Source: Candidatus Desantisbacteria bacterium CG1_02_49_89
GTDB taxonomy: Bacteria > Desantisbacteria > UBA1551
Length of the DNA stretch: 31,263 bases
Direction: 5' to 3'
Assembly (NCBI GenBank): GCA_001871075.1
Contig: MNUP01000006.1
Span: 1-31,263 of the forward strand
Shown here: one piece after another, positions 1,610-30,062 of the stretch
How positions within the stretch are numbered: the first letter of the stretch is position 1
Layout: every line of letters starts with the position of its first letter
Program-made: the position numbers and the translations under genes
Notes under the pieces: model-generated
Told to the model about the DNA's origin: nothing
What the model saw: only the letters and a program-made list of their open reading frames with translations
Database searches by the model: none

Positions 1610-1775
1610 AAAAATCGGCTTCCTGGAAAAATATACTCTTCAGACATAGAGACGCAAACCCCGCAAATGCCAATATTGGCATACTGAACTATTCGCAAGC
1701 TTCCACCTAATAAACTTGGCGGACACGGCAAGTTCAGGGCAGGCCAGGGAATTGCATAAAATGCTTGTCAAATAC

Positions 1776-3779
1776 CTATATCCTTATGGATTTAAAAAAA
1801 TCCCTGACTTCCGATAGGTCCTCCGCGATACGGCATTCGGGCAAAGAGTTTATGAATATCCTGCCGTAATACCTGGTCCGGAGGCGCGGGTCAAGTATCG
1901 CCACCATCCCCTTGTCTTCCTTCGTCCTTATAAGCCTGCCGAACCCCTGCCTGAGCAACACCACAGCCCTGGGTATGTGGTAGTAAACAAACGGGTCCTT
2001 GCCTTCTGCCTGGAGCATTTCTGTCTTCGCCTCTGTCACAGGATCGTCCGGCACAGCGAACGGCAGCTTTGTTATTATAACGCACTCCAGGGCTTTGCCG
2101 GGCACGTCAACCCCCTGCCAGAAGGTCATTGTGCCGAAAAGCGCGAAACCCTTGCCCTCTTTCCTGTGCTTGAGGCCTTTCCGGAACTTTTCAAGCATTT
2201 TATACCTGGGCATTATACCCTGACACAATATTTCAACCGATTCCGTTTCCTTCAGCGACTCATAAACCTTTTCCATCATTTTATAGCTGGTGAAAAGGAC
2301 AAAGGTGCTTCCGCGTGTGATATCCAGTATCTTTTCTATTTCCGAAGTGACCTCAAGGGTATATGCGCCTGTTTCTTTGCCCGGGTCAGGCATGCTCCTG
2401 GGAACGTAGAGAAGGGCGTTCTCAATGAAATTGAAAGGCGAACCAAGCATAAGCTCTTCGGCATTTTCAATCCCCAGGCGTTCCCTGATGAACGCGAAGG
2501 AATTGCCTGCAGAAAGCGTTGCCGAGGTCAACACGACAGGCTTTGACCCGTCAAACACCTTTTCCCGCATCAGCCCGCTTATGTCAACAGGCAAAGCGTG
2601 CACGGAAAAACGCGGGTTCTTTTTCCTCACAGCTTCCGCCCAGAAAACGTATCCTTCCTGCTCCTGGCTTATGACCGCCTGAGCGCCCTTAGCGAAAAAC
2701 ACCGCGCGCATGGAAAGCGCCCCGATCTCTTTCTTATCCTCTGTATCCCTTACGGAATCCGCAAGGCTTTTGAGCGCGGCCGCAAGCTCTGCAAGGGGCT
2801 GGGTAAGGTTGTTGGGAACGAAATTCGGGGCCCTTATCCTGAAAATATTCTCGTCTTCCGGAAATTTATCAGCGACGTTTGAAAAAAAAGCGTCGGCCGC
2901 CTTTCTCGCGGCGGCTGTAAGCATTATGACATCTTCGGCCTTTTCCCCGCCCGGATGCTCAATCCTGGAAATAAACCCCCTGCCCGGCCTTGTCCCTGCT
3001 ATCGAATCAAAAAGGAATTTCAGCGCGGGGCTGGATATTTCTGCGCCAAGGTGGTCTGTGGCAACCTCCTCAACGCTGTGCGCTTCGTCGAAAACAACGG
3101 CGTCGTATTCGGGCAGGATCCTTTCACCCGCTGAAAGGTTGGCAAAGAACATGTGGTGGTTGGTAACAAGGACGCGGGCCGCGAACTCCCGCTTTTTCGC
3201 CCTGCGGTAAAAGCAATCCTCGTTGTGCGCGCATTTGTTTCCCATGCACAGGTCCGACTCCCTGCACACCTTGTACCGCAGAGATTCCGAGATCTCAAAA
3301 TCCATTTCCTGGAAAAGCCCGGTATCCGTCTTCGACGCACTCCATTCAAAGATGTCGTCCAGCTGCTTCTCTTCGGACCCGGAATCGAAAAACCCTCTCT
3401 GCCCCGTCCTTTCGAGCCTGCGCCTGCACAGGTAGTTCTGGCTCCCCACGCATAGCGCGCAGCTGAAATCCAGGCCCAGGGCCTTTTGCAGGAACGGTAT
3501 GTCCTTCTCTGTGAGCTGCTGCTGCAGGGCTTTCGTATACGTGGATATGACAACGCGGGTGTTCTGCTCAACCGCCCAGTATATCAAAGGGACTAAATAA
3601 GCAAGGCTCTTGCCAACGCCTGTGCCGGCTTCGACTATAAGGTTATTCTCTCCGTAGATAGCTTTGCATACCGCGGCTGACATCCGGATCTGCTCCAGAC
3701 GCGGCTCAAAACGCGGCAGGTGTTCTGCAATGGGGCCGTTTTCACCGAAGATCTTTTCAATTATTTCTAAGGTATTCAT
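1776..3779 (-). CDS. dinG: DinG/YoaA-family ATP-dependent DNA helicase
   Basis: This superfamily 2 helicase of the XPD/DinG group (667 residues) is a 5'-3' helicase expected to unwind damaged or structured DNA. Walker A is GTGVGKS (residues 52-58), the DEAH box is in VVFDEAHSVEE, and motifs VTNHHMFFAN, LTSATLS and QGFGRLIRTKEDKG follow. Four cysteines likely to hold the Fe-S cluster lie in SQNYLC and in VCRESDLCMGNKC. I start at ATG 3779; the upstream in-frame TTG (3809) only lengthens the overlap with the carboxypeptidase gene. No clear Shine-Dalgarno is seen, and the 23-base overlap suggests coupling. The symbol is by family; exact orthology to E. coli DinG is not certain. Confidence 0.88.
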   Translation of the reverse strand: MNTLEIIEKIFGENGPIAEHLPRFEPRLEQIRMSAAVCKAIYGENNLIVEAGTGVGKSLAYLVPLIYWAVEQNTRVVISTYTKALQQQLTEKDIPFLQKALGLDFSCALCVGSQNYLCRRRLERTGQRGFFDSGSEEKQLDDIFEWSASKTDTGLFQEMDFEISESLRYKVCRESDLCMGNKCAHNEDCFYRRAKKREFAARVLVTNHHMFFANLSAGERILPEYDAVVFDEAHSVEEVATDHLGAEISSPALKFLFDSIAGTRPGRGFISRIEHPGGEKAEDVIMLTAAARKAADAFFSNVADKFPEDENIFRIRAPNFVPNNLTQPLAELAAALKSLADSVRDTEDKKEIGALSMRAVFFAKGAQAVISQEQEGYVFWAEAVRKKNPRFSVHALPVDISGLMREKVFDGSKPVVLTSATLSAGNSFAFIRERLGIENAEELMLGSPFNFIENALLYVPRSMPDPGKETGAYTLEVTSEIEKILDITRGSTFVLFTSYKMMEKVYESLKETESVEILCQGIMPRYKMLEKFRKGLKHRKEGKGFALFGTMTFWQGVDVPGKALECVIITKLPFAVPDDPVTEAKTEMLQAEGKDPFVYYHIPRAVVLLRQGFGRLIRTKEDKGMVAILDPRLRTRYYGRIFINSLPECRIAEDLSEVRDFFKSIRI

Positions 3780-4644
3780 CGAAGCGGAATTTCGCGAAGG
3801 CAAAATCAAGCATGCGGGGAGAATCCTTCCATATGTCCTTTGAACCGAGTAGTATGCAAATAACCTCGCGGCCGTCCCTTTTGCAGGTGACGGTTATGCA
3901 TTTGCCCGCCTGCTTGGTGTAACCGGTCTTGACGCCGCTGACGCCGTCATACATGAAAAGCATCCTGTTCACGTTCTTAAGGTGCCTTTTGCGGACATAG
4001 TTTCCCGTCCATTTTATGTCCGCCTCTTTCATCTGCACGATCTCCCTGAAAACCGGGTTCTCAAGGGCGTACCGCGTTATTTTGAGTATGTCATAGGCAG
4101 TGGAGAAATTAGAGCTGTTTACTTCCAGGCCGTGGCAGTTGGTGAACACGGTGTTGTCCGCCCCTAGTTCCTCCGCCTTCCTGTTCATCATTGTGACGAA
4201 TTCATCCTCGCTCTTCTTCACGCTTTCAGCCGCGTAAAGAGCTGCGTCGTTCCTTGACTCAAGCATAAACGCCAGCAGGAGGTCCCTTACGGATATCTTC
4301 TGGTCCTTCCTAAGGTTCAGGAGCCACGAGTTAAGTGTCCTGTCAGTCCTGCGGATCCTCACAACCTCGTCCAGTCCCTTGTTTTCAAGCAGGACCACTG
4401 TTGTCATGATCTTCGCAAGGCTCGCGATCTGGCGTATCACGCCCGCGTCCTTCTCGTATATGATCTTCCCGGTGTTCAGGTCGGCTATGAGCGCGGATTG
4501 CGCGGATATTTCCGGGGGATCTCCGACCGCGGCTGCAAGCATACTTAATTCATCGCCTTCCGGAACGCTCATCATCGACGTTGACCTTGAGCCTGCGGCC
4601 ATTAACCCGGCCAGAATAATAGAAATCAGTATTGCCTTTTTCAT
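3757..4644 (-). CDS. D-alanyl-D-alanine carboxypeptidase (peptidase S11, PBP5/6 type)
   Basis: This periplasmic penicillin-binding enzyme trims the terminal D-Ala from peptidoglycan pentapeptides. All three active-site motifs are present: S-x-x-K in ASLAKIM, S-x-N as SRN in MLESRNDAA, and KTG in SGVKTGYT. The N-terminus MKKAILISIILAGLMAAG is a signal peptide. At 295 residues it lacks the C-terminal beta domain and amphipathic anchor of PBP5, so it may be soluble in the periplasm. ATG 4644, preceded by AGGTGGG, is preferred over TTG 4665, which lies in an AACC-word repeat. It sits downstream of the DUF47 gene and overlaps the helicase gene. Confidence 0.92.
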   Translation of the reverse strand: MKKAILISIILAGLMAAGSRSTSMMSVPEGDELSMLAAAVGDPPEISAQSALIADLNTGKIIYEKDAGVIRQIASLAKIMTTVVLLENKGLDEVVRIRRTDRTLNSWLLNLRKDQKISVRDLLLAFMLESRNDAALYAAESVKKSEDEFVTMMNRKAEELGADNTVFTNCHGLEVNSSNFSTAYDILKITRYALENPVFREIVQMKEADIKWTGNYVRKRHLKNVNRMLFMYDGVSGVKTGYTKQAGKCITVTCKRDGREVICILLGSKDIWKDSPRMLDFAFAKFRFDEYLRNN

Positions 4645-4655
4645 CTTTTCCCACC

Positions 4656-4690
4656 TAACCAACAAACCAACTAATTAACCAACCAACTAG
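4656..4690. repeat. Iterated AACC word repeat
   Basis: A run of imperfect 4-base AACC/AACT units fills the gap between the DUF47 and carboxypeptidase genes. It is one of about a dozen different word-like repeats in the window, each made of 4-11 base units. Confidence 0.6.
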
Positions 4691-4699
4691 TTTTTGACG

Positions 4700-5365
4700 T
4701 CAGGATTTTACTATCAGAAGGCGCACGAGGTCTGCCGCGTCCTCCGCCCTGTCACTCACCCCTTCTATGCAGTTTATCAATTCCAGGGCCATAATGAGGG
4801 TCGGGGTGTCAAAGCTTCCCTTCATTAGCATGCCGCGAAGTTCCTGGGTGCAATCATCTCCCTTTTCTTCGAGTGTTTCAACCTCGGTGCAAAGGCTAAG
4901 GACCTTTTTCACGTCTTTCGCCATGTATAAAATCGCCTCGCTTAATTTACTGACAGCCTGGACCCCGATATCGGCGAATTCCACCATTTTCCTGCACATT
5001 TCATCGGAAAATTTCTTATCGAACACTTTCAGCAGTCTTGCCCCGGCGTTCGCCCAGTCCGCTATGTTATCCAGGGCCTTGCCAAGGTGGACCAGGTCTT
5101 CCCTGTCAGGCGGCATGAACATGCCCTCTGAAAGATGGTCCATTACCTCCCTGCGGATCATGTCAGCCTCGTGCTCAGCGACAGACACTTCCTTTATTTT
5201 CTCGTGGCAGGCGGGAATGTTGCCTGTTTCAAAAAGCTCGAACGCCTCTTTCATTTTTGTCACTGTCTCGGAAACTTTTTCGATCTGTTTCTGGGCGTTG
5301 CCCATGGCCTCTTTTTCTTTTTCCATGCCGAACCAGCCCAAGATATTCCTTTGTTCTCCGCGCAT
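4700..5365 (-). CDS. PhoU-like DUF47 protein, partner of Pit
   Basis: This 221-residue all-helical protein belongs to the DUF47 (PhoU-related) family, whose genes typically adjoin pit transporters and are thought to modulate phosphate uptake. Helical repeats carry acidic/His metal-ligand-like stretches such as VAEHEADMIRREVMDHL and EEKGDDCTQELR. The start is ATG 5365, with a strong AGGGAGG Shine-Dalgarno 5 bases upstream. A longer frame to 5428 exists only because an 8-base word repeat (5396-5431) happens to be open. It lies 70 bases after pit in the same direction, so co-transcription is likely. Confidence 0.9.
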   Translation of the reverse strand: MRGEQRNILGWFGMEKEKEAMGNAQKQIEKVSETVTKMKEAFELFETGNIPACHEKIKEVSVAEHEADMIRREVMDHLSEGMFMPPDREDLVHLGKALDNIADWANAGARLLKVFDKKFSDEMCRKMVEFADIGVQAVSKLSEAILYMAKDVKKVLSLCTEVETLEEKGDDCTQELRGMLMKGSFDTPTLIMALELINCIEGVSDRAEDAADLVRLLIVKS

Positions 5366-5395
5366 ATAACCTCCCTTAAAAATTCCTTGTTTTTG

Positions 5396-5431
5396 CTCTG
5401 ACACGTTGATACGTTGACACGCTGACACGCA
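5396..5431. repeat. Iterated ACGTGTCA 8-base word repeat
   Basis: On the minus strand about four 8-base units (GCGTGTCA, GCGTGTCA, ACGTATCA, ACGTGTCA) lie between pit and the DUF47 gene. The same word occurs inside trpG (about 25178-25204), so the two loci share a dispersed sequence. Confidence 0.7.
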
Positions 5432-5435
5432 GTTA

Positions 5436-6374
5436 TTAAAAAAGGCGCATCAGCACGTAGCTTAATAATCCGGTAAGCACGGGGGTCAGCACCCAGGCGA
5501 AAATTATATCCTTTAGCAGCTTCATATTAACGCCCACGATCCCCCTTGCAAGCCCTACTCCGGCAACCGCCCCCACTATCGCGTGGCTTGTGGACACAGG
5601 CATTTTCATATACGTGAAGAAGTGGACTGTTATGGCTGTACCGAGGTTCGCGTATATCGCCATTATTTTTGTCATGCGCGTGATATTGAACCCCACGTTT
5701 ACCGCGACCCTGGCGCCGAAAGTCATCACGCCCAGGTACATGCTTAAACCCCCGAGCGCGCACGCGGCAAGGATCGGCAATATTTTACTGCCGGATAAAA
5801 GCGCTATGGAATTCCCCACGTCGTTGGCACCCCAGCTGTACGCCACGTAGCAGCTGCTTATTGTCATCAGGACCGCGGTGGCCATGGAGAATCCTTTTTC
5901 CCAGTTGAACTTTGTAAGTATAAACCACAATGCGATAAAGATCAGGAATGAAACAAGGCAGGCGCCAGTGGGAGTGGTAAACCAGCATAAAATTATCTTC
6001 CACATCGAGTTCCAGTTCACAGGAGCCTTTATTGCCAGCCCGACCCCGATGATCGAACCTACCACCGCGTGGCTGCTGCTCACCGGAAGCCCGAAATAAG
6101 AGGCAAAAAACATCCATATCCCCATGCCTATCATCCCTATCGCCGCGGCTTTGGCGCTCAGATAGCTTGCGGGGATAATGCCGCTTCCAAGGGTCTGGCT
6201 GACCTTCCCTCCTTCAAGCAGGGCTCCTGCAAGCGCGCAGGAACCGCACAGGATCATGGCAGTTCCGACCTTGCCGATGCGCGCGCCTATCCACGTTCCG
6301 AATGAATTGGCACCGTCGTTCGCCCCTATCGCCCAGCCGTTAAAAACCGAAACAAGAATCGCGATCATTTCCAT
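5436..6374 (-). CDS. pit: PiT-family inorganic phosphate transporter
   Basis: This 312-residue integral membrane protein takes up inorganic phosphate (usually as metal phosphate) with a cation gradient. The two PiT signature repeats are visible: GANDGANSFGTWIGA near the N-terminus and WGANDVGNSIALLSG in the second half, each followed by hydrophobic helices and PVSSSHAVVG / PVSTSHAIVGAVAG pairs. ATG 6374 is chosen; TTG 6404 in the same frame is less likely. A promoter lies at 6440-6467. With the DUF47 protein it forms the usual low-affinity phosphate pair. Confidence 0.93.
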   Translation of the reverse strand: MEMIAILVSVFNGWAIGANDGANSFGTWIGARIGKVGTAMILCGSCALAGALLEGGKVSQTLGSGIIPASYLSAKAAAIGMIGMGIWMFFASYFGLPVSSSHAVVGSIIGVGLAIKAPVNWNSMWKIILCWFTTPTGACLVSFLIFIALWFILTKFNWEKGFSMATAVLMTISSCYVAYSWGANDVGNSIALLSGSKILPILAACALGGLSMYLGVMTFGARVAVNVGFNITRMTKIMAIYANLGTAITVHFFTYMKMPVSTSHAIVGAVAGVGLARGIVGVNMKLLKDIIFAWVLTPVLTGLLSYVLMRLF

Positions 6375-6439
6375 ACTGTATATCCGTGATCCCTTAGAGC
6401 GCAAATGAATAAAGTATATGCTATAAAAAAATAAGTAGG

Positions 6440-6467
6440 ATTATAGCACAAATCACAAAAAAGTCAA
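6440..6467 (-). promoter_or_regulatory. Sigma70-type promoter of the pit operon
   Basis: On the minus strand TTGACT (6467-6462), 16 bases, then TATAAT (6445-6440), about 65 bases before the pit start. No phosphate box was recognised. Confidence 0.75.
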
Positions 6468-6482
6468 GTAAGTATCCTGAAT

Positions 6483-7949
6483 TTATTTCTGTATCGTTAT
6501 TTCCACCCTGCGATTTTTAATTCGTCCTTCCTCACTAGTATTGAGCGCAATTGGTTTTTTCTCTCCATATCCTTTCTTTATCAATTTCTCGTCAGGTATA
6601 TCTTGTTTTACAAAATATTGCGCTACATTTTCAGCCCTGTCCTTAGAAAGCTCTAAGTTTGAAGGATATTTCGCTTTCAATCGCGGACTAATTGGCACGT
6701 TATCCGTGTGCCCCTCAATAAGAATAATTGACCCTGGATAAGCTTTTAACGCGTTTGTAATCAGGTCAAGCGCCTCATAACTCTCGGGGAGTATTTCGGC
6801 GCTGCCTGAAGCAAATCTGATCGCGGATTCCTGTGCTACTATAATAATTTTTTCATTATCTTCCGTTAGAATTAATCCTTCCAGTTTTTTCAAATCTTCC
6901 AGTGCTTTTTGATGCTCGCGCAGAAGTTTTTCAAGTTCTTCTTTTGCGCGTTTTTCCTTTTCTCTCTCAAGTCTTTCTTTTTCCCATCTATCCGCATCGC
7001 CAAAGAGGAAAGAAAGCGAAACCCACGCACCGCCCGTAAAGAACTCTGTTGAAGAATGATATGGAAGCGCAAATGCGCAATCTAATTTCCAGTCTGTCTT
7101 TTTAATGTTGTTTGATTTAACGCTTCCTCCAAAAACAAATGAAAAATCTCCATCGCCGCCTATTTTTGTTCCTGCGCGCACTCCCAAAATATTGTCCTGT
7201 ATAATTTTTTTTAAACCTTCTGTTTGTTTAAACCATGTTTCATAACCCAAGTTTAATTTAAAATCGCCGTTTCCTCTTATCGCTATGTCAGTTGAGCCCA
7301 CGATGTTATTAAAAACAGAAAAGCCATCAAATTTATAACCTGCTCCTGCTCTAAAACCCCATATTCCTGTTCCTATCTCAGTGCAAGAAATACCCACGCT
7401 TAATTTTTCAGTCTTTAGAGGCTTAAAAAAACAAGCCAAATCAGCGCTTAAATCTGCCGGAAATCTCTCGTCAAAGAACCTGCTGTCAGAAATTGCGGAA
7501 ATTGTTCTTGTATTATCAGGATAATTCTTAGAACACATTTTTAAAGTAACACCCCAGGATATTTTGGGATTTATTATCCCACAATAAGAAAGTCCCAAAA
7601 TGTTCTCTCTGTAACGAGCGGAAAGATTCACGCCACGGCTGAGGAGAGATATCCCAACATGCCCTATCTCAGAAATGCGGTTTACATAGCCTATGAATCC
7701 ATACAGGCTGTTTCCAGAGAGATGAAATAGATAAGAACCGTTTACTAGTAGTTCCGGGCGAGTAATTTGGAATAAACCTGCGGGGTTGTAGAAAAGAGTG
7801 GATGCGTCATCAGCAACCGCAATAAAAGCTCCCCCCATTCCAATACTGCGGGCACTAATGCTTAGGTCCTCAAAAGCAGCGTAACCGCCAGAGCAAAACG
7901 CAAAATATAAAATGCAGAATGTAAGTAATAAAATTTTGAGCTTCATCAT
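6483..7949 (-). CDS. Outer-membrane beta-barrel (PorV/UPF0164-like) fused to OmpA peptidoglycan-binding domain
   Basis: The 488-residue protein has four parts: a signal peptide (residues 1-24), a barrel domain starting with ARSIGMGGAFIAVADD and FYNPAGL, as in PorV/FadL-like proteins, a charged coiled coil (about 320-360, KERLEREKEKRAKEELEKLL), and a C-terminal OmpA domain (about 365-488; EGHTDNVPI, NLELSKDRAENVAQYF, GRIKNRRVEITIQ). It probably anchors the outer membrane to peptidoglycan. GGAGGTG precedes a double ATG (7949/7946). It lies 42 bases after the AsnB-like gene and is probably co-transcribed. The hydrophobic core FCILYFAFC is encoded by a sequence resembling the window's GCATTTTGC word repeat. 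Confidence 0.85.
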   Translation of the reverse strand: MMKLKILLLTFCILYFAFCSGGYAAFEDLSISARSIGMGGAFIAVADDASTLFYNPAGLFQITRPELLVNGSYLFHLSGNSLYGFIGYVNRISEIGHVGISLLSRGVNLSARYRENILGLSYCGIINPKISWGVTLKMCSKNYPDNTRTISAISDSRFFDERFPADLSADLACFFKPLKTEKLSVGISCTEIGTGIWGFRAGAGYKFDGFSVFNNIVGSTDIAIRGNGDFKLNLGYETWFKQTEGLKKIIQDNILGVRAGTKIGGDGDFSFVFGGSVKSNNIKKTDWKLDCAFALPYHSSTEFFTGGAWVSLSFLFGDADRWEKERLEREKEKRAKEELEKLLREHQKALEDLKKLEGLILTEDNEKIIIVAQESAIRFASGSAEILPESYEALDLITNALKAYPGSIILIEGHTDNVPISPRLKAKYPSNLELSKDRAENVAQYFVKQDIPDEKLIKKGYGEKKPIALNTSEEGRIKNRRVEITIQK

Positions 7950-7990
7950 ACACCTCCAATAATTTTTTTAATTCTGGCTTTATATCAAAA

Positions 7991-9412
7991 TTACCAGATG
8001 CTCCTGCCGATTACCCGAAGTGCTGAATCGGATGGAAAGAATTTCTTGAAAATTCTGTAATATAAAAGCTCTTCCTTGTTCCTGAGCGTTAACGAATTGT
8101 CTATAATTCTTTCTTTTTCAAATTCCTTATCAGAAATCTGCGTATTTGCTGCTTTCTCCATCATTTCGTAAGAACCTGAACCCTGGGAAAATTTCTGTTT
8201 TTTTCTCCAGACTATCTCTTTGGGCAGAATGCCCTCAAATGATTTTCTCAGGATCCATTTTTCCTGCAGGTTAGCCGCGGTTTTCAAAGCGGGAGAAATC
8301 CTCAAAGCGAACCGGACAAAATCAGTGTCAAAAAAAGGTATCTTTGCCTCTATGCCGCACGCTGAAGGTATCCTGTCGCAGCGCTGGAAGCCGGTATTAT
8401 AAAGCGCAAGCAGCAGATTGGTCATTTTTATCTGCAGCTCCCTGCCTTTCAGGTTTTTCAGGAAATCATAGCCAGCGAATAATTCATCTCCCCCCTCGCC
8501 GATAAAAACGGTGTCAATGCCTTTCTCCTTCGCAAGCCGTGCAACAAGGAAATTCGGTATTGAACTGCGCACAAGCAAAGCGTCAAAAGATTCAAGGCTG
8601 TATATGACTCCGGGCAGGATTTCTTCCATGTCTTTCCTGCCGTATACGATCGTAAAATGCGGCGTCTTGAGATACTCGGCAAGCATGGATGAAAATTTCA
8701 GATCCGGGCTCCCCCTGGTCCCCGCGGACAGAAAAATTACATTCCCGAAATTTTTTTTAACGAGATAAGCGATTATGCTGGAATCTATCCCGCCGCTCAG
8801 GAATATACCAACCCGGGACTTGCCTTCCAGCCTTTTGCGCACCGCTTTTTCAAGATTTTCCCTGAGGAGCGGCATTATTTTCTCAGGCTCAGAAAGCAGC
8901 GGGGCGGCATAATGGGCGGTCCAGTGCCGGTGCAGGCCGCATTCCGAACCGATGAAATGGCCGGGGGGCAGCGAGCTGATTTCTTTGGCGGCTGCCTGCA
9001 ATGACTTTATTTCCGAGGCGAAGTATATCTTATCCCCGCACCTGCTGTAGTAAAGCGGCTTAACGCCCAGTCTGTCCCTGACCAGCATGAGGGATCCCGC
9101 GTCATAAACCGCTATTGCGTATTCCCCGTTAATGCATTTGACGAAATCATTCTTCCTCTCCCGGAACAGGGACAGCAAATCCTCGGAGCTGATCTTTCCC
9201 GCGTTTCTGCCGTAAACTTCCCCGTCGACAAGAATGCAGCCTCTCCTGTCTCTGAAAAAACTTGAATCCGGATGTATCGCAAAGCCAAGCGAGCAGCTGT
9301 CGCCGTAAAAAAACATCGCCCTTCCGCTTAGGCCCCTGTGCTCTATTTTACTGAGCATGGTCCCTAGCAGTTTCCTGCCGCCCGATTTATATATGCCCGC
9401 GATCCCCGACAT
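7991..9412 (-). CDS. Asparagine synthetase-like ATP-dependent amidase/ligase with degenerate glutaminase site
   Basis: This 473-residue protein has the AsnB layout: Ntn glutaminase-like domain (about 1-165) and ATP-pyrophosphatase synthetase domain with SGGIDSS (206-212) and GEGGDELFAGY (305-315). The second residue is Ser (TCG) where glutamine-dependent enzymes have the catalytic Cys. The usual NGE is DGE (63-65), and the HRRL arginine region is not preserved. It therefore probably cannot hydrolyse glutamine. It may use ammonia or join an internal amine, as in beta-lactam synthetases, carbapenam synthetase and lasso cyclases, which share this loss. It is first in the transcript behind leader RNA A. 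The true substrate is unknown. Confidence 0.85.
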   Translation of the reverse strand: MSGIAGIYKSGGRKLLGTMLSKIEHRGLSGRAMFFYGDSCSLGFAIHPDSSFFRDRRGCILVDGEVYGRNAGKISSEDLLSLFRERKNDFVKCINGEYAIAVYDAGSLMLVRDRLGVKPLYYSRCGDKIYFASEIKSLQAAAKEISSLPPGHFIGSECGLHRHWTAHYAAPLLSEPEKIMPLLRENLEKAVRKRLEGKSRVGIFLSGGIDSSIIAYLVKKNFGNVIFLSAGTRGSPDLKFSSMLAEYLKTPHFTIVYGRKDMEEILPGVIYSLESFDALLVRSSIPNFLVARLAKEKGIDTVFIGEGGDELFAGYDFLKNLKGRELQIKMTNLLLALYNTGFQRCDRIPSACGIEAKIPFFDTDFVRFALRISPALKTAANLQEKWILRKSFEGILPKEIVWRKKQKFSQGSGSYEMMEKAANTQISDKEFEKERIIDNSLTLRNKEELLYYRIFKKFFPSDSALRVIGRSIW

Positions 9413-9436
9413 GCTGATTTCCTTTTTGGTTCAGCG

Positions 9437-9571
9437 TTATTTTTGCCGCGCGCGTTTTTTTAACTTTTGCCGCTTCGGTAAAAAACAGGAGGCCCATGTT
9501 TTACGCGTTATGCAAAAGCCTCTTTTAGAAGCAAGCCTGCATTTGACGCCGGTGTATCTGCATGTCCGCAA
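9437..9571 (-). CDS. Possible small basic Cys-containing ORF (unrecognised)
   Basis: A 44-codon frame starts at TTG 9571, four bases after GAGGAGG (complement of 9576-9582), and ends 24 bases before the AsnB-like gene. The peptide has four Cys and about sixteen Lys/Arg and no acidic residues (ends KRQKLKKRARQK). I do not recognise it. It lies between leader RNA A and the synthetase gene, so it could be a leader peptide, a small protein, or chance; lack of homology evidence keeps confidence low. Confidence 0.25.
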   Translation of the reverse strand: MRTCRYTGVKCRLASKRGFCITRKTWASCFLPKRQKLKKRARQK

Positions 9572-9619
9572 TGTTCCTCCTCTGCTCTTTTTATATTCTA
9601 ACGTCCTTGATATTTGCAA

Positions 9620-9727
9620 TAAAAAAAGCCGCCTGCCTGGATTCCTTTTCCAGGATAGCGGCCCGACTATCGCATTTAACCTCTGGGAATGCTGTTCCCA
9701 GACCCTTGCACCTTAGCTCCAGATTCT
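9620..9727 (-). promoter_or_regulatory. Leader RNA A: unrecognised structured 5' leader (riboswitch/attenuator candidate)
   Basis: Transcribed from the promoter at 9734-9762. The RNA contains GGGTCTGGGAAC, a hairpin CTGGGAA/TTCCCAG (9695-9701 with 9683-9689), AGAGGTTAAAT, a stem GATAG/CTATC around TCGGGCCG (9654-9671), then a terminator hairpin and U-tract (9621-9662). The GATAG/CTATC stem shares bases with the terminator's 5' arm, so the two compete. Leader B (14316-14425) matches it almost base for base in the core, with a compensatory A-U to G-C change. It does not match any riboswitch consensus I can recall. It serves the AsnB-like and OmpA-barrel genes downstream. Confidence 0.75.
9621..9662 (-). 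terminator. Intrinsic terminator of leader RNA A
   Basis: In the minus-strand RNA, GCCGC (9662-9658) and TCCTGG-type pairing (TCCAGG 9649-9654 with CCTGGA 9636-9641) close with GCGGC (9632-9628), followed by seven U (9627-9621). It lies about 200 bases before the AsnB-like start, so read-through is needed to express that gene from this promoter. Confidence 0.8.
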
Positions 9728-9733
9728 AATTAT

Positions 9734-9762
9734 ATTATACCATATCAATTCCCTCTTGTCAA
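9734..9762 (-). promoter_or_regulatory. Consensus sigma70 promoter of leader A / AsnB-like operon
   Basis: Minus strand TTGACA (9762-9757), 17 bases, TATAAT (9739-9734), with TGG before the -10 (extended -10). This is a perfect-consensus promoter, expected to be strong, which fits control by a downstream terminator rather than at initiation. Confidence 0.88.
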
Positions 9763-9866
9763 CAAAAATTTCTATTTCTGGTTAAAATTTATTATATTAT
9801 TTTCCCTAAGCTGCATCGAACCAGGTATAATCAGCCGGAAGCAATATAATGGAATCCCCGGCATAC

Positions 9867-11051
9867 CTATTCCTGCTTTGCTCCTATTTCTCCGGCTTTT
9901 TTCAGGGCAAATTTGGTACAAAGGGGGCCGAATAATTCATATATTATGCTGGTAGTCACGATGGTAGTAATAATAATTCCGCCGATTTCCGGGAATGTAG
10001 CTTTTGCGATAAGCGCTGTGCCGAGTGCAACGCCTGCCTGAGGAAGAAGCGCAAGCCCCAGATATTTCCTAACCGAATGCCCTGCGTTTGCGATCTTAGC
10101 CCCGATTGAAGCGCCCCAAATTTTACCCAGAGAACGAAAAACAATATATACCAATCCGATCATCCCCAATTTCGGCAATACGGCAATCTCAAGGCTCGCT
10201 CCCGCGAGCACAAAGAAAATTAAATACAGCGGAGAATCAATCGAATTGAGACTGTTAAAAAACTTCGAACTTTCCCTGTCTATGTTAACGAGGACTCCAC
10301 CCAGAAACATACTTGCCAGAAGAACCGAAAGGTGCAAATAGATTGCAAGCCCTGCATTTAAAAGAATAAAACCGAGGGTATATGTTAAGAGTTCAGCCTG
10401 AGTACGGATATAGCGGGAAAACCGCTTCATTGCCCATGCAATACCGCCCCCGAGGATCAGGGCGCCGAAAATCTCCAGCAGCGATAAAAATACCACCTTA
10501 ACAAGAAACAACGCTGAAAGCATGTGGAAGTGAACTGCTCGCGCGATTGCAAGGGAAATAGCAAAAATAATCAGGCACCACGCATCGTCAATAGCAACAA
10601 CGCCCAGCAGCGTATCCGTAAAGATGCCTTTCGCCCTGTATTCTCTCACCACCATAAGTGTTGCTGCCGGAGCAGTGGCAGATGCTATTGCCCCAAAAAC
10701 CAAAGAAAGATAAAATGGCTGTTTGAGTATGAGCCAGAAAGAAAGGGTAGTAAGCAACCACGATCCACACGCCTCAAGAATTGAAGTCCATAAAACAGGC
10801 CTGCCTATCCTCTTGAACGATTCCCTTGAAAAGCTCTGCCCCAGGGAAAAAGCAATGAAGCTAAGTACGATATTTGATATGAACCCCGAATTATTTATTA
10901 GTGACGGCGAAATAAGGTTAAAAATGGACGGTCCGATAAGGATCCCGATAACCAAATAAGCTGTAACGCTGGGAAATTTCATCCTCCCTATCAGCTTTGC
11001 GCTAAGCAAGCCGACGAGAAGGATAAAACTGAAACTCAGTATCGCGTTCAT
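9867..11051 (-). CDS. CPA2-type cation/proton antiporter (Kef/NhaA-like exchanger domain)
   Basis: This 394-residue protein has about 12 hydrophobic segments and no C-terminal RCK/TrkA domain. GVVAIDDAWCLI carries the paired aspartates of electrogenic CPA2 exchangers, and FPSVTAYLVIGILIGPS is the typical first re-entrant region. It would exchange Na+ or K+ for H+ across the inner membrane; the ion cannot be told. Its ATG overlaps the CBS gene stop as ATGA, so the CBS protein may be its detached regulatory domain. It is last in the operon that starts with the opine-dehydrogenase gene. Confidence 0.9.
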   Translation of the reverse strand: MNAILSFSFILLVGLLSAKLIGRMKFPSVTAYLVIGILIGPSIFNLISPSLINNSGFISNIVLSFIAFSLGQSFSRESFKRIGRPVLWTSILEACGSWLLTTLSFWLILKQPFYLSLVFGAIASATAPAATLMVVREYRAKGIFTDTLLGVVAIDDAWCLIIFAISLAIARAVHFHMLSALFLVKVVFLSLLEIFGALILGGGIAWAMKRFSRYIRTQAELLTYTLGFILLNAGLAIYLHLSVLLASMFLGGVLVNIDRESSKFFNSLNSIDSPLYLIFFVLAGASLEIAVLPKLGMIGLVYIVFRSLGKIWGASIGAKIANAGHSVRKYLGLALLPQAGVALGTALIAKATFPEIGGIIITTIVTTSIIYELFGPLCTKFALKKAGEIGAKQE

Positions 11052-11536
11052 TTAATAAGTCCCTTCTTTTCAAATATTGCCAAAAGGATATCAAATACTC
11101 CTATTATGCCCGTAAGCCTGCCTTCTTTATCGGTAACCGGCAGCCTGTCCACGGAATTTATCTTCATTGTCGTGTATGCTTTTTCAAGGGGCATATCCTC
11201 ATCCAGATGCAGGAATTTTGCGTCCATTATGTCCTGGGCTATAAAAAGCACCCCCGCGTCTTCGTCTATGTCCAGGTTGAATATGTCCACTTCTTCTTTT
11301 TCAAGGAAAGGCACTCCCTTTATGAGACTGGTCCCTTTTGTCTGAAATATTTCTATAAGGCCCCTGAAAGAAATAGTACCTATCATAATACCTTCTTTGT
11401 TAACAACGGGAACCACGGGAAACGTGTGGAAACCCCTGAATTTCTTAAGCAGTTCCTGGAGGGTTGTTCCGGGGCTTATGAAAATCACCTCTCTGTCCAT
11501 CACGTCACTGACTAAAATAGGATTATCATTATTCAT
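11048..11536 (-). CDS. Tandem CBS-domain protein
   Basis: The 162-residue protein is made almost entirely of two CBS motifs (about 8-75 and 98-160; VSDVMDREVIFISPGTTL, then AQDIMDAKFLHLDEDMPL and VDRLPVTDKEGRLTGIIG). Such pairs bind adenine nucleotides or related ligands and regulate a partner. It overlaps the antiporter by 4 bases and the B12-fold gene by 8 bases (ATGAATAA), so translation is coupled to both. I infer that it senses a nucleotide and gates the antiporter. Confidence 0.9.
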   Translation of the reverse strand: MNNDNPILVSDVMDREVIFISPGTTLQELLKKFRGFHTFPVVPVVNKEGIMIGTISFRGLIEIFQTKGTSLIKGVPFLEKEEVDIFNLDIDEDAGVLFIAQDIMDAKFLHLDEDMPLEKAYTTMKINSVDRLPVTDKEGRLTGIIGVFDILLAIFEKKGLIK

Positions 11537-13163
11537 TTATTTTCCCTCTCAGAGAATCCATTCTTGCTTTTTCTGAAATTATTTTTCCCGTCTTTCCGTT
11601 TACCGCGCAGCATTTTCCGTCAATAATCATGGTCGCTATTCCGCCCTTCGCGCAGGGATTTTTTTTCAGGTGGGGCGCGTCTAACAGACCGGTCTCTATC
11701 GCGCGCGCTATGACTTCCGGGTCCGACCACGGGTTCCCGGAGCCCTTCCCCAGTTCCTTCAGCGCGCTGAGGAGTATCCCGGCTTCCTTTACCAGTTCCT
11801 TTTTCCTGCGCTGCACCCTTGAGTCGTTTGTCATATCCGGAAAATCATCAAGCGAATTATGGGCCATACCTCTGATGATCTTGCAGCTTTCTATAAGTTC
11901 CCCCGGGCTCACGATATGATGAGCTTCGCAGTAACCTACCACGTGCAGTATGTGGGGCTTAAGTGCAAGGCTCAGCAATCCGGACGCGGCAAGCTGCCCC
12001 TTCGCGATGTCCATGTCAGGCAGGAAACTTGCAAGCCCTGCGCGCACCTGGCGGAAGGAAGTGAAATTATCGTCGTGCAGCCCTTCTATCAGTTCAATCT
12101 TGGCAAGCATCTTGCCGAGATCCATCGCAGGGGAGGTACCGGGCGGCGTGTTGAACATATACTGCGAAACGTAGTATCTTGCACCGAGCTTCTTCGCGTT
12201 ATAAGCCGCCAAAAAAGCCATTGCGACCGCAAGGGAATCATGGGCGTTCCTCAGGCTCCACTGGTGGGATTCATTCACCTCAACCGGTATTCCCCGGCCT
12301 GCATACCACCTGATCGCTTCCTGATTTTCTTTTATCGCGTCGCGTATCGGCCTGTCCGAGCGTCCGTCAAGCTCGCTGTACCAGCACAGCGGAACCGCTC
12401 CCCAGGCAATGTTTATGGTCTCCTTGAGCATCTCCGCCCATTTTATAAGGTCACGCGTCCCGCTGTAGCATCGCAATAGCGGATAATTACCGCGCCTTGC
12501 CGCGTCATATATAGCGCGAAGGTCTTCGGGTTTCCTTAAAGGCACTCCTCCAGCTCCGTCCTGCCCCGGCTTCATCTCGTCCGGCCGGAAAAAACTTTCC
12601 TGAGCGTTCTGGTCAGGCCCAAGCGAAAGCACGTCCAGGACACCCGATTGCGCGATCAGGCTTGCCCCCTCAACGGTATCCTTCACGGAGGGTAGACCGA
12701 AATGATGGCGCAGGATCGGAAAAGGATAACTCTTGTTGATTCTCGATACAAGGTCCTGCGGAAATGCCTCTTCGCCCTTGTAACTGGTTTCTCCTTTAAG
12801 GTATGCCTTTATCTCGTCCAGCGGTTCGGCTCCCTCGAAAACGCGCTCAAATAATCCGCTTTTTCGCGCGGTCTCTGCGACAGCCGGAGTTCCCCCGAAA
12901 ACAATCCTTGTTCCCGAAATATCATTCTCCCGTATCTTTGCTTTTATCTGTTCAAAAAGCCTGCCCGCGACTTCCGGGTCAAGCCTGTAGCTTATCGCGA
13001 CCAGGTCAGGGCTCTCTTCTTTTATAAACCGCATTAATCCTTCAGGCGATATTGCGGAACCGAGGAATTTCGCTGTATGGCCCTCTGCTTTGCACAGATC
13101 AAGGAAATTCAGCAGTCCGGCGACGTGAATGCAGGTGCCTATGGATGCCCCTATAATCTTCAT
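11529..13163 (-). CDS. Cobalamin-binding-fold protein with mutase-like C-terminal domain
   Basis: Residues 1-125 form a B12-binding Rossmann fold: CIHVAG (11-16) at the D-x-H-x-x-G position with the axial His kept but Asp replaced by Cys, VAISYRL at the S-x-L position and IVFGGTP at the GG position. The larger C-terminal part (about 140-480) has AQSGVLDVLSLGPDQNAQES and YMFNTPPGTSPAMDLGKM, which remind me of the barrel of glutamate mutase E-type enzymes; this is weak. The last 40 residues (HLKKNPCAKGGIATMIIDGK, CCAVNGKTGK) form a small Cys-bearing tail. The gene follows the opine-dehydrogenase gene after one base. The reaction is unknown; a carbon-skeleton or amino mutase is a guess. Confidence 0.6.
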   Translation of the reverse strand: MKIIGASIGTCIHVAGLLNFLDLCKAEGHTAKFLGSAISPEGLMRFIKEESPDLVAISYRLDPEVAGRLFEQIKAKIRENDISGTRIVFGGTPAVAETARKSGLFERVFEGAEPLDEIKAYLKGETSYKGEEAFPQDLVSRINKSYPFPILRHHFGLPSVKDTVEGASLIAQSGVLDVLSLGPDQNAQESFFRPDEMKPGQDGAGGVPLRKPEDLRAIYDAARRGNYPLLRCYSGTRDLIKWAEMLKETINIAWGAVPLCWYSELDGRSDRPIRDAIKENQEAIRWYAGRGIPVEVNESHQWSLRNAHDSLAVAMAFLAAYNAKKLGARYYVSQYMFNTPPGTSPAMDLGKMLAKIELIEGLHDDNFTSFRQVRAGLASFLPDMDIAKGQLAASGLLSLALKPHILHVVGYCEAHHIVSPGELIESCKIIRGMAHNSLDDFPDMTNDSRVQRRKKELVKEAGILLSALKELGKGSGNPWSDPEVIARAIETGLLDAPHLKKNPCAKGGIATMIIDGKCCAVNGKTGKIISEKARMDSLRGKINE

Positions 13164-13164
13164 C

Positions 13165-14298
13165 CTAAACGTCCTCCCCTATCGCGTATGCCCTCAGCTC
13201 TTTCACCGTCATACCCGCTATTCCGAGTTTTTCCACAGTCCTGCCTTCTTTCCAATAATCTTTTTTGTGGATGGCTGACGCGAGATATATTACCGACTTT
13301 ATAGCCGGCGTTGGCACACCAAGCATTTCCCCCACGGAAGCTATGGGAACAAGGCTGCATGGAACGTCCTCACTGATGTAGCGGCTGTTCAGCGAGCCGG
13401 GAGACAGGATCCTCTGATAGGCCGGATTTGAATGTATCATTTCGTAAAGGCTGTTTTTCTTTCCGCCGTACGAGAAGTAAAACCAGTCCTTGGCGGACAT
13501 CGCCCTCATGCCGAGAGCCGCCGCTACCGCTACCCTTTCCTCATCGAGCTTTTCCAGGACCGCGGCGACCGAGGGGGAGCAGCCGTCCACGTAAAACCGG
13601 AAACGAGGGGTTTTCAGTCCAGGCAGGCGGATGCCCAGAAATTTAAGGTCAGAAGAATTCTCCACCCATCCGGTGTTCAGGATCGTTATTGCCGGATGGA
13701 ATATCGAACCGATATTATTCAGGCTTGTCTTAAATATATCGTCTCCGGGGACAAACTGAGGAAAGGCTTCCCTGAGCGTATCCACCACTTTTGGTATATT
13801 ATGTGCGCCTATTGAAGCAACCGGGACTTCCTTTTTTATCCCGTAGATCCTAACCTCGCCGAACGCGCTTGCCCGTGAAGCGTAAAGCAGGGTTTCCGCT
13901 TCCGCGATGATTACGTCTGCGCTGCAGCCCTTTTCCTTCAATACCTGCCTGAATTCCAGGGCGCCGAACGTCCTGCCTGGGTTGAGCACGATTATCTGGC
14001 CGTTCTGCAGGTGCGGCGCGCATGCCTCCGCGATAAACCTGTGCGCCGTGGCAGGAGTCACCACCATCAGCACATCGGTGCCTGTTACGGCTTCCCCTGC
14101 GTCTGTGGTGACCATTTTAAGCTTTCCATATCCCTCGACTTTTCCCCTGACCCGTAATCTTTTGATCATTGAAAGGGAGAAGATCCTTTTTTTGCCGCGG
14201 TTGTAAAGATTAACGGGGAAACCCATTATAGCAAGGTGCCCTGCCATGGCAAGGCCGCCGTTACCCGCGCCTAATACGCAGAACTTCAATTTCTCCAC
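13165..14298 (-). CDS. NAD(P)-dependent opine (octopine/nopaline) dehydrogenase family protein
   Basis: The 377-residue enzyme has an N-terminal Rossmann motif GAGNGGLAMAGHLA (10-23) and a C-terminal opine-dehydrogenase domain with the conserved helix NNIGSIFHPAITILN (His201 is the likely catalytic residue) and EDVPCSLVPIASVGEMLGVP. Family members reductively join an amino acid to a keto acid, or run the reverse oxidation. The start is GTG 14298 with GGGGGA 8 bases upstream, immediately after the U-tract of leader RNA B. It is the first gene of a four-gene operon with the B12-fold, CBS and antiporter genes. The substrate is not deducible. Confidence 0.85.
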   Translation of the reverse strand: MEKLKFCVLGAGNGGLAMAGHLAIMGFPVNLYNRGKKRIFSLSMIKRLRVRGKVEGYGKLKMVTTDAGEAVTGTDVLMVVTPATAHRFIAEACAPHLQNGQIIVLNPGRTFGALEFRQVLKEKGCSADVIIAEAETLLYASRASAFGEVRIYGIKKEVPVASIGAHNIPKVVDTLREAFPQFVPGDDIFKTSLNNIGSIFHPAITILNTGWVENSSDLKFLGIRLPGLKTPRFRFYVDGCSPSVAAVLEKLDEERVAVAAALGMRAMSAKDWFYFSYGGKKNSLYEMIHSNPAYQRILSPGSLNSRYISEDVPCSLVPIASVGEMLGVPTPAIKSVIYLASAIHKKDYWKEGRTVEKLGIAGMTVKELRAYAIGEDV

Positions 14299-14315
14299 TT
14301 TTCATCCCCCGCAAT

Positions 14316-14353
14316 AAAAAAAACCGCCCGCCTGGTTTTTTCCAGGATGGCGG
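14316..14353 (-). terminator. Intrinsic terminator of leader RNA B
   Basis: In the RNA, CCGCC (14353-14349) and CCTGG (14346-14342) pair with CCAGG (14335-14331) and GGCGG (14328-14324), followed by eight U (14323-14316). The 5' arm overlaps the competing CCATC strand. Confidence 0.83.
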
Positions 14354-14425
14354 CCCGACCATCGCTCATTTAACCTCTGGGATATGGTTCCCAGACCCTC
14401 TTTCACCGCGTCCACTTTCCAATAA
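14316..14425 (-). promoter_or_regulatory. Leader RNA B: paralogue of leader RNA A
   Basis: Same order of elements as leader A: GGGTCTGGGAACC, hairpin CTGGGA/TCCCAG (14389-14394 with 14377-14382), AGAGGTTAAATGAGC, stem GATGG/CCATC around TCGGGCCG (14346-14363), then terminator. The stem is GATAG/CTATC in leader A, so the pair covaries. The U-tract ends about 10 bases before the Shine-Dalgarno of the opine-dehydrogenase gene, which places the terminator decision directly before that operon. The remaining 14456-14634 holds no clear gene, only a 26-codon plus-strand frame (from ATG 14482). Confidence 0.78.
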
Positions 14426-14426
14426 T

Positions 14427-14455
14427 ATTATACCACACCTGCCCTGTTTTGTCAA
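14427..14455 (-). promoter_or_regulatory. Consensus sigma70 promoter of leader B / opine-dehydrogenase operon
   Basis: Minus strand TTGACA (14455-14450), 17 bases, TATAAT (14432-14427), again with TGG before the -10. It has the same architecture as the leader A promoter, although spacer sequences differ. Confidence 0.88.
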
Positions 14456-19171: not shown

Positions 19172-20194
19172 ATGATACGGGAAGCGATAGCAAAAGTAAT
19201 ACAGAAACAAGACATGGCAGAGGAAGAAGCGGCTCAGGCGATAAATGAGATAATGGACGGGGCAGCCACGCCTTCCCAGATATCCGCCTTGATCACCGCC
19301 CTGCGTATGAAGGGCGAGACCGTTGAGGAGATCACGGGTTTCGCGAAAGTCATGCGCCGGAAAGCTGTCCCTATCGATATCGATAGGGACGGCAAAATAC
19401 TCGCTGATACCTGCGGCACAGGCGGGGACGGGGCAGGCACGTTCAATATATCCACTGCCGTCGCGTTAGTCGCGGCCGGGGCCGGGCTTGCCGTGGCAAA
19501 ACACGGCAACCGCTCGGTCTCAAGCTCATGCGGCAGCGCTGACGTGTTCGCCGCGCTTGGGGTTAATATCGAGATCCCGGCGGAAAAAGTGAAGGAATGC
19601 GTGGAAAAGATCGGGATAGGTTTTTTGTTCGCTCCCCTCTTCCACTCAGCGATGAAACACGCCGGTGCGACGCGCAAAGAAATAGGTATCCGCACGATTT
19701 TTAATATACTCGGGCCCCTTACTAACCCGGCAAACCCCTCTGTCCAGCTTGTTGGAGTCTATGATCCAATGCTGACTGAGATCGTGATCGAAGTCCTGAA
19801 AAACCTCGGCCTTAGATCAGCCATGGTTGTGCACAGCGAAGACGGGCTTGACGAAATAAGCATATCAGCGCCCACCAAGATCACGCATTTCGAAGAAAAC
19901 GCCGACGTCGAAACATACTCCGTAAAACCTGAGGATTTCGGGCTGAGCAGAGCCGCGCTGAAAGAAGTGGCAGGCGGCAGCGCGAAGAAAAACGCGGAAA
20001 TAGTAACAGATATTCTCGCGGGAGAGAAAGGCCCGAAAAGGGATATAGTAATCCTGAACGCGGCAGGCCTTTTTGTCACTGCGGGTATTGCGAAGGATTT
20101 CTTTGAAGGAATAAAAAAGGCTGAGCATTCCATAGATTCAAGCCTCGCACTTAAAAAACTCAATGACCTCATTGAATTCACACAGGGGTTATAA
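19172..20194 (+). CDS. trpD: Anthranilate phosphoribosyltransferase
   Basis: This enzyme transfers phosphoribose from PRPP to anthranilate. The 340-residue protein has the family signature [37 protein letters not shown] and GPLTNPANP. It is normal in length and not fused to TrpG. AAGGAG lies about 11 bases before ATG. It is the first trp gene after the terminator and is followed by trpB after two bases, so the order departs from the common E-G-D-C-F-B-A. Confidence 0.96.
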
Positions 20195-20196
20195 CA

Positions 20197-21369
20197 ATGA
20201 TGCCTGACAAAAAAGGATATTACGGGATCTTCGGCGGAATGTTTGTGCCCGAGACACTTGTTCCCGCTCTCAAAGAGCTGGAAAAAGTATATAATAAGGA
20301 AAAGAGAAGCCGGAGATTCAGGGATGAGCTGGGCTTTTACCTGAAATATTACGCGGGAAGGCCCACGCCGCTTTATTTCGCGGACAGGCTGAGCGCGCGC
20401 CTTAAGGGCATTGAGGTCTATCTTAAAAGGGAGGACCTCCTGCACACGGGCGCGCACAAGATAAACAACGCGCTGGGCCAGATACTGCTCGCAAAAAGGA
20501 TGGGTAAGAAACGCGTTATAGCTGAGACAGGCGCGGGCCAGCACGGGGTCGCAGTCGCGACAGTCGCGGCGAAATTCGGGTTTGAATGCTGCGTGTATAT
20601 GGGAACGGAAGACATGGAAAGACAGGCGCCGAACGTGCTCCGCATGAAACTTCTGGGCACGAAAGTCATACCGGTAAACTCGGGAAGCAGGACACTTAAA
20701 GACGCGATCAACGAAGCTTTGCGCGACTGGGTCTCAAATGTCGGGACAACCTATTACCTTTTCGGCTCTGTAGCCGGCCCACACCCCTACCCTCTTATCG
20801 TGCGCGATTTCCAGTCCGTAATAGGAAAGGAAACAAGAAAACAGATACTGGACATAAAAGGAAGGCTGCCTGATTACATTTTTGCGTGCGTTGGAGGCGG
20901 AAGCAACTCGATCGGGATATTCCACGCTTTTTTGAAAGACCGCCGGGTAAAACTTATCGGGGTGGAAGCGGCAGGCCTGGGGCTTGGCTCAGGAAAACAC
21001 GCGGCAACCCTTTGCAAGGGTTCACCCGGTGTCCTGCACGGAGCTAAAAGCTACGTCCTTCAGGATAAAGACGGCCAGATACTGGCAACCCATTCTGTCG
21101 CCGCAGGCCTTGATTACCCCGGAGTAGGTCCTGAGCACAGCTTCCTGAAAGAAACAGGGCGCGCTCAATACGCGTCCGTCACGGATAAAGAAGCTCTTGA
21201 AGCGTTCAATCTTCTGAGCAGGCTTGAAGGAATAATACCCGCGTTTGAATCATCGCACGCGCTTGCCTATCTGGTAAAGATCTCAAAAAAACTAAAAAAA
21301 GGAACCGTCGCAGTCGTAAACCTGTCGGGCAGAGGGGATAAGGACCTGGGAAATCTGGTTGAAAGTTAA
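20197..21369 (+). CDS. trpB: Tryptophan synthase beta chain (TrpB1 type)
   Basis: This PLP enzyme condenses indole with serine. The 390-residue chain has HTGAHKINN with PLP lysine K88, the catalytic Glu E110 in AETGAGQHG, the TrpB1 insert typical of TrpA-partnered enzymes, and the phosphate loop VGGGSNS. It starts at a double ATG two bases after trpD. It probably pairs with TrpA, although a 199-base repeat-filled gap separates the two genes. Confidence 0.96.
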
Positions 21370-21568
21370 AAGTTGAAGGTTAAAAGTTCAAGGATTTCAA
21401 ATATACAATTTCAAATCTTCTTCTGCCGCGAGGTGCTTTCCCGTAGCGGGCTTTAAAGATTTTTTCACAGGACCCTACGGAAAAAATTTTAGAGCGAGCA
21501 GTCAGATGCGAGCGACCCGCCGAGGGAAACACCGAGAAAAGACAGAAGAAACATAAATTCAAACTAAT
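21370..21568. repeat. Word repeat plus fold-back element between trpB and trpA
   Basis: An AAGTT(A/G)AA word run (21364-21393) comes first. Then nested inverted arms: TTCTTCTG (21418-21425) with CAGAAGAA (21543-21550); GGTGCTTTCCC (21432-21442) with GGGAAACACC (21524-21533); CCGTAG (21441-21446) with CTACGG (21475-21480). The last 50 bases carry several GAG triplets (GAGCGAG, GCGAG, CCGAG). No Shine-Dalgarno is evident before trpA, so this element is its immediate 5' context. Confidence 0.65.
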
Positions 21569-22390
21569 ATGAATAGGATAGAGGAAAAGTTCAGACAATT
21601 GAAAAGAAACGGAAAGAAAGCCTTCATACCGTATATCACATGCGGCTTTCCCGACCTGCGGACCACTGAAAAGCTCATCCCGGCAATGGAAAAAGCCGGA
21701 GCTGACATCATTGAGCTGGGCGTGCCGTTCTCTGACCCCATAGCCGACGGGCCCGTGATCCAGTTCTCCTCGCAGGAAGCGCTGAAGAAAAAAGTAAATC
21801 TTCGAAAGATCCTGAAAATGGTGTCCGGCCTGCGCCGCCGCAGGACCCAGGTCCCGGTGGTGCTTATGGGATATTACAACAGCATCTGCGCTTACGGGGA
21901 GAAAAAATTTCTCAGAGACGCGGCAAAAGCAGGGATAGACGGGCTTATTATCGCGGACCTTCCAGCGGATGAGGGAAAGGCATTCAGCAGGCAGGCCGCG
22001 GAACGCGGTATTGACGTCATTTTTCTCGCTGCTCCCACAAGCGGGGCGCAAAGGCTTAAAAAGATAGCGCGCCTCAGCAGGGGTTACGTATATTACGTTT
22101 CCCTGACAGGCGTTACAGGAGCCAGAAAAGAACTGCCTCCCGGGCTAAGGGAAAAGATCAGGTCTGTGTGCCGCCTGACCTCAACGCCGGTATGCGTGGG
22201 GTTCGGCATTTCAAAACCCGGGCATATAAGGTCCCTCGAAGATGCCGGTGACGGCATTATCGTGGGAAGCGCCATAATAAACATAATGAAAAAGAACGCG
22301 GGCCGCCGTCGTAGGGACCTGGTCCGGAAAACCGCGGAATTTGTTGGGAAGCTTGCCGGGGCACTTACCGGGGCATGCGGAGAAAGATAA
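21569..22390 (+). CDS. trpA: Tryptophan synthase alpha chain
   Basis: This chain cleaves indole-3-glycerol phosphate to indole, which passes to TrpB. The 273-residue TIM barrel has the catalytic E49 (IIELGVPFSDP) and D60 (IADGP), and the phosphate-binding GFGIS and GSAI segments. No Shine-Dalgarno is visible in the 20 bases before ATG. The C-terminus (GALTGACGER) overlaps the first possible trpC codons. Confidence 0.95.
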   Translation: MNRIEEKFRQLKRNGKKAFIPYITCGFPDLRTTEKLIPAMEKAGADIIELGVPFSDPIADGPVIQFSSQEALKKKVNLRKILKMVSGLRRRRTQVPVVLMGYYNSICAYGEKKFLRDAAKAGIDGLIIADLPADEGKAFSRQAAERGIDVIFLAAPTSGAQRLKKIARLSRGYVYYVSLTGVTGARKELPPGLREKIRSVCRLTSTPVCVGFGISKPGHIRSLEDAGDGIIVGSAIINIMKKNAGRRRRDLVRKTAEFVGKLAGALTGACGER

Positions 22391-22392
22391 AA

Positions 22393-24650: not shown

Positions 24651-24661
24651 AAGGAAAAAAC

Positions 24662-30021: not shown

Positions 30022-30062
30022 AGTATTTCTCCAAAATGTTATTTTTAACACTTTCACGAAAT

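Follow-up and report, generated by a model that had tools for sequence, protein, structure and literature searches.

Two paralogous RF03057 leaders as probable Na+-triggered on-switches for an antiporter operon and an asparagine-synthetase-like gene

The window analyzed here, a 31,263-nucleotide stretch of DNA from Candidatus Desantisbacteria bacterium CG1_02_49_89 (contig MNUP01000006.1), contains two similar leader RNAs, here referred to as leaders A and B, which raises the question of what these RNAs sense and how they act on the genes that follow. An initial annotation had described them as paralogs of no recognized class, with shared segments and a terminator with a U-tract, each preceded by a perfect promoter and possibly responding to an amino-acid-like ligand. 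Every structural element in that description was found, on the minus strand, as listed below.

14455-14427, minus strand: promoter of leader B, TTGACA-N17-TATAAT with extended -10, 12/12 consensus positions
14425-14316, minus strand: leader B, paralog of leader A
14345..14398, minus strand: leader B aptamer, RF03057 (nhaA-I), covering the whole model (positions 1-55) at 44.2 bits (gathering score, 37)
14316..14358, minus strand: leader B intrinsic terminator, overlapping the 3' strand of P2, with eight T (folding and terminator rule)
9762-9734, minus strand: promoter of leader A, TTGACA-N17-TATAAT with extended -10, 12/12 consensus positions, aligning with the promoter of leader B
9727-9620, minus strand: leader A, paralog of leader B
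9653..9705, minus strand: leader A aptamer, RF03057 (nhaA-I), covering the whole model (positions 1-55) at 45.7 bits (gathering score, 37)
9620..9666, minus strand: leader A intrinsic terminator, with a 5' arm, GGGCCGCUAUCCUGG, that overlaps the 3' strand of P2 and is followed by seven T (folding and terminator rule)

Pairwise alignment and a repeat search showed that the two leaders align from the promoter to the U-tract, and over this length they are true paralogs. Common to both are GGGTCTGGGAAC, AGAGGTTAAAT, GTCGGGCCGC and a terminator with a T run. When the core common to both was written as a degenerate pattern, the window contained it twice, at leaders A and B, with 0.00 matches expected from shuffled sequences. 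Within the scanned region, no promoter sequence other than these two reaches 12/12.

Searched against Rfam 15, the window gave two matches at gathering level, both to RF03057 and located exactly at the two leaders, which are also the only RF03057 copies in the whole genome. Their aptamer core is near-identical to that of the known family. No other riboswitch family reached its gathering score in the window, a permissive covariance-model scan of the leader region gave no other credible family, and the DUF1646 motif (Na+-I) had no match in this region at E values up to 1. Since both leaders match RF03057, the claim of an unrecognized class is wrong; a significant Rfam match was the very outcome that the annotation had named as decisive against it. 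The nhaA-I motif is the Li+-I riboswitch, and the characterized ligands of the family are Li+ and Na+ (PMC9646797). On the strength of the RF03057 matches, and with no other riboswitch in the window, amino acids, opines and cobalamin were dropped as ligands, and membership in the Na+-I class was rejected because there was no covariance-model match.

Two kinds of search covered the relatives of the two leaders. Pattern matching across 84,980 species genomes yielded 52 places. Rfam was queried with 39 of them and confirmed RF03057 for 37 (L032 and L051 being unconfirmed), among them members in Nitrospirae, Nitrospinae and Verrucomicrobia records; the remaining 13, mostly in GC-rich genomes, looked by eye like chance matches. 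In family searches, RF03057 exceeded the cut-off in 68 of 285 Omnitrophota genomes, in 26 of 198 of the Elusimicrobia/Elusimicrobiota phylum and in 22 of 247 of the Thermodesulfobacteriota/Desulfobacterota phylum (phylum labels were taken from the titles of the database records). An Alphaproteobacteria control set of 240 genomes gave only two sub-threshold matches, a scarcity that is probably due to the small number of first-look candidates scored per GC-rich genome, and it was replaced for comparison by six Proteobacterial plasmid-borne RF03057 copies.

Among 119 distinct relatives, pairs 1 to 6 of both P1 and P2 are paired in 94 to 100% of sequences, compared with 42 to 55% at slid P1 positions, and most positions show several, compensatory pair types. 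P1 pair 3, for instance, is GC in 58 and AT in 55 sequences, and P2 pair 3 is GC in 87, AT in 27 and GT in 5. The latter is the position at which the two leaders differ, with a P2 stem of GATAG/CTATC in leader A and GATGG/CCATC in leader B. The compensatory change reported in the annotation is thus present; it is the 119 relatives that establish covariation, for which two copies alone are insufficient.

A strict terminator rule was passed by 106 of the 119 distinct aptamers, compared with 1.4% of control positions; a looser rule fires at 40% of control positions, and the strict rule was the one relied on. Published reports of terminator-bearing nhaA-I copies had been confined to Deltaproteobacteria, where the genes that follow have no known function, and the one tested was named Na+-II (White et al. 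2022, PMC9646797). As predicted from sequence, the terminator type is much wider than this and is widespread in Omnitrophota, Elusimicrobiota and Desulfobacterota. RF03057 also occurs in tandem, at positions 6526-6784 of L036 (a Nitrospinae record) and in several Desulfobacterota-type genomes (L139/L142, L147/L162, L150/L164, L153/L167 and L145/L163), and most of these copies have a terminator each.

How might these leaders switch? In both, folding places GGGCCGC(U/C)AUCCUGG, including the 3' side of P2, in the terminator hairpin, and the terminator halves fold with z scores of about -2.6 (leader A) and -3.5 (leader B). In leader B, the run of eight T lies just upstream of the Shine-Dalgarno sequence GGGGGA. 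The overlap between stem and terminator, from which an on/off choice had been proposed, therefore holds in both leaders, with the 3' arm of P2 being the 5' arm of the terminator. Because this arm serves in both structures, the aptamer and the terminator are mutually exclusive and ligand binding should favor readthrough. A terminator pairing that competes with the aptamer is also the platform of Na+-II from Desulfobulbus propionicus, a terminator-type member that was shown by assay to be a Na+-activated transcription switch (PMC9646797), and from this member we infer the direction of the response, making leaders A and B probable ligand-on antitermination switches. Without ligand, the 3' strand of P2 would pair with the downstream GC-rich segment and transcription would stop at the U-tract. 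A rise in an intracellular alkali cation, most likely Na+, would stabilize the P1-P2 aptamer, P2 would retain its 3' strand, and RNA polymerase would read through. The genes expected to be turned on are the following.

13165..14298, minus strand: opine dehydrogenase (ODH), first gene under leader B (PF02317, E 3e-46)
11529..13163, minus strand: B12-binding-domain protein of 544 amino acids (PF02310 only, E 9e-11)
11048..11536, minus strand: tandem CBS-domain protein (PF00571)
9867..11051, minus strand: CPA2/NapA-like Na+/H+ antiporter, fourth and last gene of operon B (PF00999, E 4e-35)
7991..9412, minus strand: asparagine-synthetase-like protein of 473 amino acids, presumed target of leader A (PF00733, E 9e-62)

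Readthrough of leader B would switch on the first four of these genes, and readthrough of leader A the asparagine-synthetase-like enzyme. The control of neighboring transcription units that the annotation had proposed is supported. Taken together, we estimate a probability of about three in four that both leaders are terminator-type RF03057 (Li+-I/Na+-II) RNAs that act as antitermination on-switches for the neighboring genes in response to an alkali cation, most likely Na+.

Among solved structures, the ODH matches N-(1-D-carboxylethyl)-L-norvaline dehydrogenase (1bg6, E 3e-70), and the best solved relatives of the antiporter are the Na+/H+ antiporters 5bz2/4bwz. For the B12-binding-domain protein, a profile search gave no family match in the C-terminal part, the structure model (mean pLDDT of 44.6) resolved the B12 domain alone, and no relatives were found in Omnitrophota, Elusimicrobiota or plasmids at the cut-offs used. 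The CBS protein shares 45% identity (blastp) with a CBS protein in a riboswitch-led cluster of L033. Both this relative and the antiporter at the end of operon B count in favor of the proposed switch. The order ODH-B12-CBS-antiporter is kept, at 65 to 79% identity, in the one other genome of the phylum that was covered, a member of the same order (G001), where the counterpart lies as follows.

L174 (G001:C81:1-14000), 1689-6099, minus strand: counterpart of operon B, behind a plain promoter

No RF03057 precedes this copy, and since the four-gene operon is conserved without it, the riboswitch was gained by or lost from a stable operon.

The asparagine-synthetase-like protein has AsnB (1ct9) as its closest solved relative. 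Its N terminus reads MSGIAGI, with Ser at the position expected for the glutaminase residue Cys2, the nucleophile of glutamine-dependent AsnB. The start codon lies about 240 nt from leader A. Between the two, at 9430-9575 on the minus strand, a strong Shine-Dalgarno sequence, AGAGGAGGAACATTG, precedes a short, very basic frame of about 43 codons, either a leader peptide or a chance frame. The gene is closely followed by those for an OmpA-family protein, a PHO4 phosphate transporter and its DUF47 partner (4700-9412, minus strand); all four may share a transcript starting from leader A. Elsewhere, the window carries a tryptophan-type cluster at 19172-27692 on the plus strand, with two PALP (TrpB-like) proteins at 20197-21369 and 26337-27692, and at 28632-30057 on the minus strand an AbiEii-type nucleotidyltransferase with an upstream partner gene, a possible type IV toxin-antitoxin pair.

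With the family and the platform in place, the remaining question is which cation is sensed. The first genes downstream of 76 relatives encode trehalose-6-phosphate synthase (Glyco_transf_20) in 29 cases, MscS in 11, Band_7 in 8, DUF1646 in 4 and a Na+/H+ exchanger in 2; CitMHS, Usp and others occur once each. Terminator-type members from Omnitrophota and Elusimicrobiota mostly precede osmotic or Na+ genes (trehalose-6-phosphate synthase, MscS and DUF1646); Na+ and osmotic stress were already raised for trehalose-linked copies by White et al. (PMC9646797). This gene context favors Na+, which we regard as the best candidate and quite likely the ligand of both leaders, with Li+ as its rival. It also leaves the proposed amino-acid-like ligand unsupported, as relatives of the same architecture mostly precede osmotic-stress and cation-transport genes and the family ligands are Li+ and Na+. 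Several points weigh against the overall reading of Na+-triggered on-switches: a link to Na+ is not obvious for ODH, the B12 protein or the AsnB-like protein, the operon of G001 has no riboswitch, some 240 nt separate leader A from the start codon, and the loop-closing nucleotide of P2 is U in both leaders, as in canonical Li+-I. In the Na+-II RNA of D. propionicus, nucleotide 54 is C, in contrast to the U of most family members (PMC9646797), and, judging from lengths, this nucleotide probably corresponds to the loop-closing position. Members that do have a loop-closing C occur in Deltaproteobacteria, mostly before periplasmic binding proteins (Peripla_BP_6) and once before a CitMHS transporter. 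Three such copies, in L154 (1501-1553, before the CitMHS-type transporter), L151 (957-1009, with a similar protein of the same N terminus as its second frame) and L169 (1501-1552), are candidate Na+-II members.

It is conceivable that the leaders, with the same family and mechanism, are true Li+-I RNAs, with antiporter expression protecting against Li+. RF03057 was defined mainly on Li+-I RNAs, with which the leaders share a full-length model match, GGGU, AGGUU, GUCGGGCCGC, P1 and P2, and the loop-closing U. The same U is present in all six plasmid copies, of which four precede an annotated nhaA, one a putative Na+/H+ antiporter and one lies in an unannotated record. However, the bottom P1 pair is G-C in all six and none has a visible U-tract before the gene, whereas leaders A and B have a bottom C-G pair and a terminator. 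In both features the leaders resemble the collected relatives, 118 of 119 of which start this pair with C or U; the one exception, L144, has G and no terminator. Furthermore, the terminator-type relatives precede osmotic and Na+ genes, with nhaA absent from their listed families. We consider Li+ unlikely in light of this. Neither leader is followed by nhaA; operon B does hold a cation transporter gene, that of the NapA-like antiporter, in fourth place. The DUF1646 motif has a similar overall architecture and overlapping downstream genes (DUF1646 and Na+/H+ antiporters), but differs from the leaders in lacking any match to them.

Broad sensing of Li+, Na+ and NH4+, as seen with the C54U mutant of the D. 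propionicus RNA (PMC9646797), is improbable. The loop U agrees with it if the positions correspond, and ammonium would fit an amide-forming enzyme, since an AsnB-like protein without the glutaminase Cys might use free ammonia; yet the idea draws on a single mutant, and ammonium-linked genes are absent from the downstream families of the relatives. That the leaders are an undescribed class with an amino-acid-like ligand, as the amino-acid-acting look of the downstream enzymes might suggest, is hardly credible given full-length Rfam matches above the curated score for both copies and an aptamer core near-identical to a known one.

Leaders A and B are thus most likely salt-triggered on-switches for an antiporter operon and an asparagine-synthetase-like gene. 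A salt-induced solute pathway built from these target genes is a fair guess. A more specific version, in which the Na+-triggered pair runs an undescribed osmoprotectant pathway, with ODH, the B12-domain enzyme and the Cys-less AsnB-like ligase making an opine-type or amidated compatible solute, is speculative and doubtful; if true, such a solute would replace trehalose, whose synthase this riboswitch type precedes in other candidate phyla. None of the target genes of the window (ODH, B12, CBS, NapA-like and asparagine-synthetase-like) is mentioned in the main text of PMC9646797, and octopine, asparagine and related terms are absent from the main texts of the two ion-riboswitch papers.

In summary, a known class explains both leaders and the claim of a new riboswitch falls; they are additional members of that class, in its rarer terminator form and with unusual target genes. 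Terminator-type RF03057 RNAs form a large group outside Proteobacteria, and although their loop nucleotide is Li+-like, their osmotic gene context suggests that they sense Na+. The basis of the choice between Li+ and Na+ in this fold thereby becomes testable, with the loop-closing U or C set against the bottom P1 pair, and the gene context of the relatives draws attention to salt-response genes of candidate phyla that have yet to be studied.
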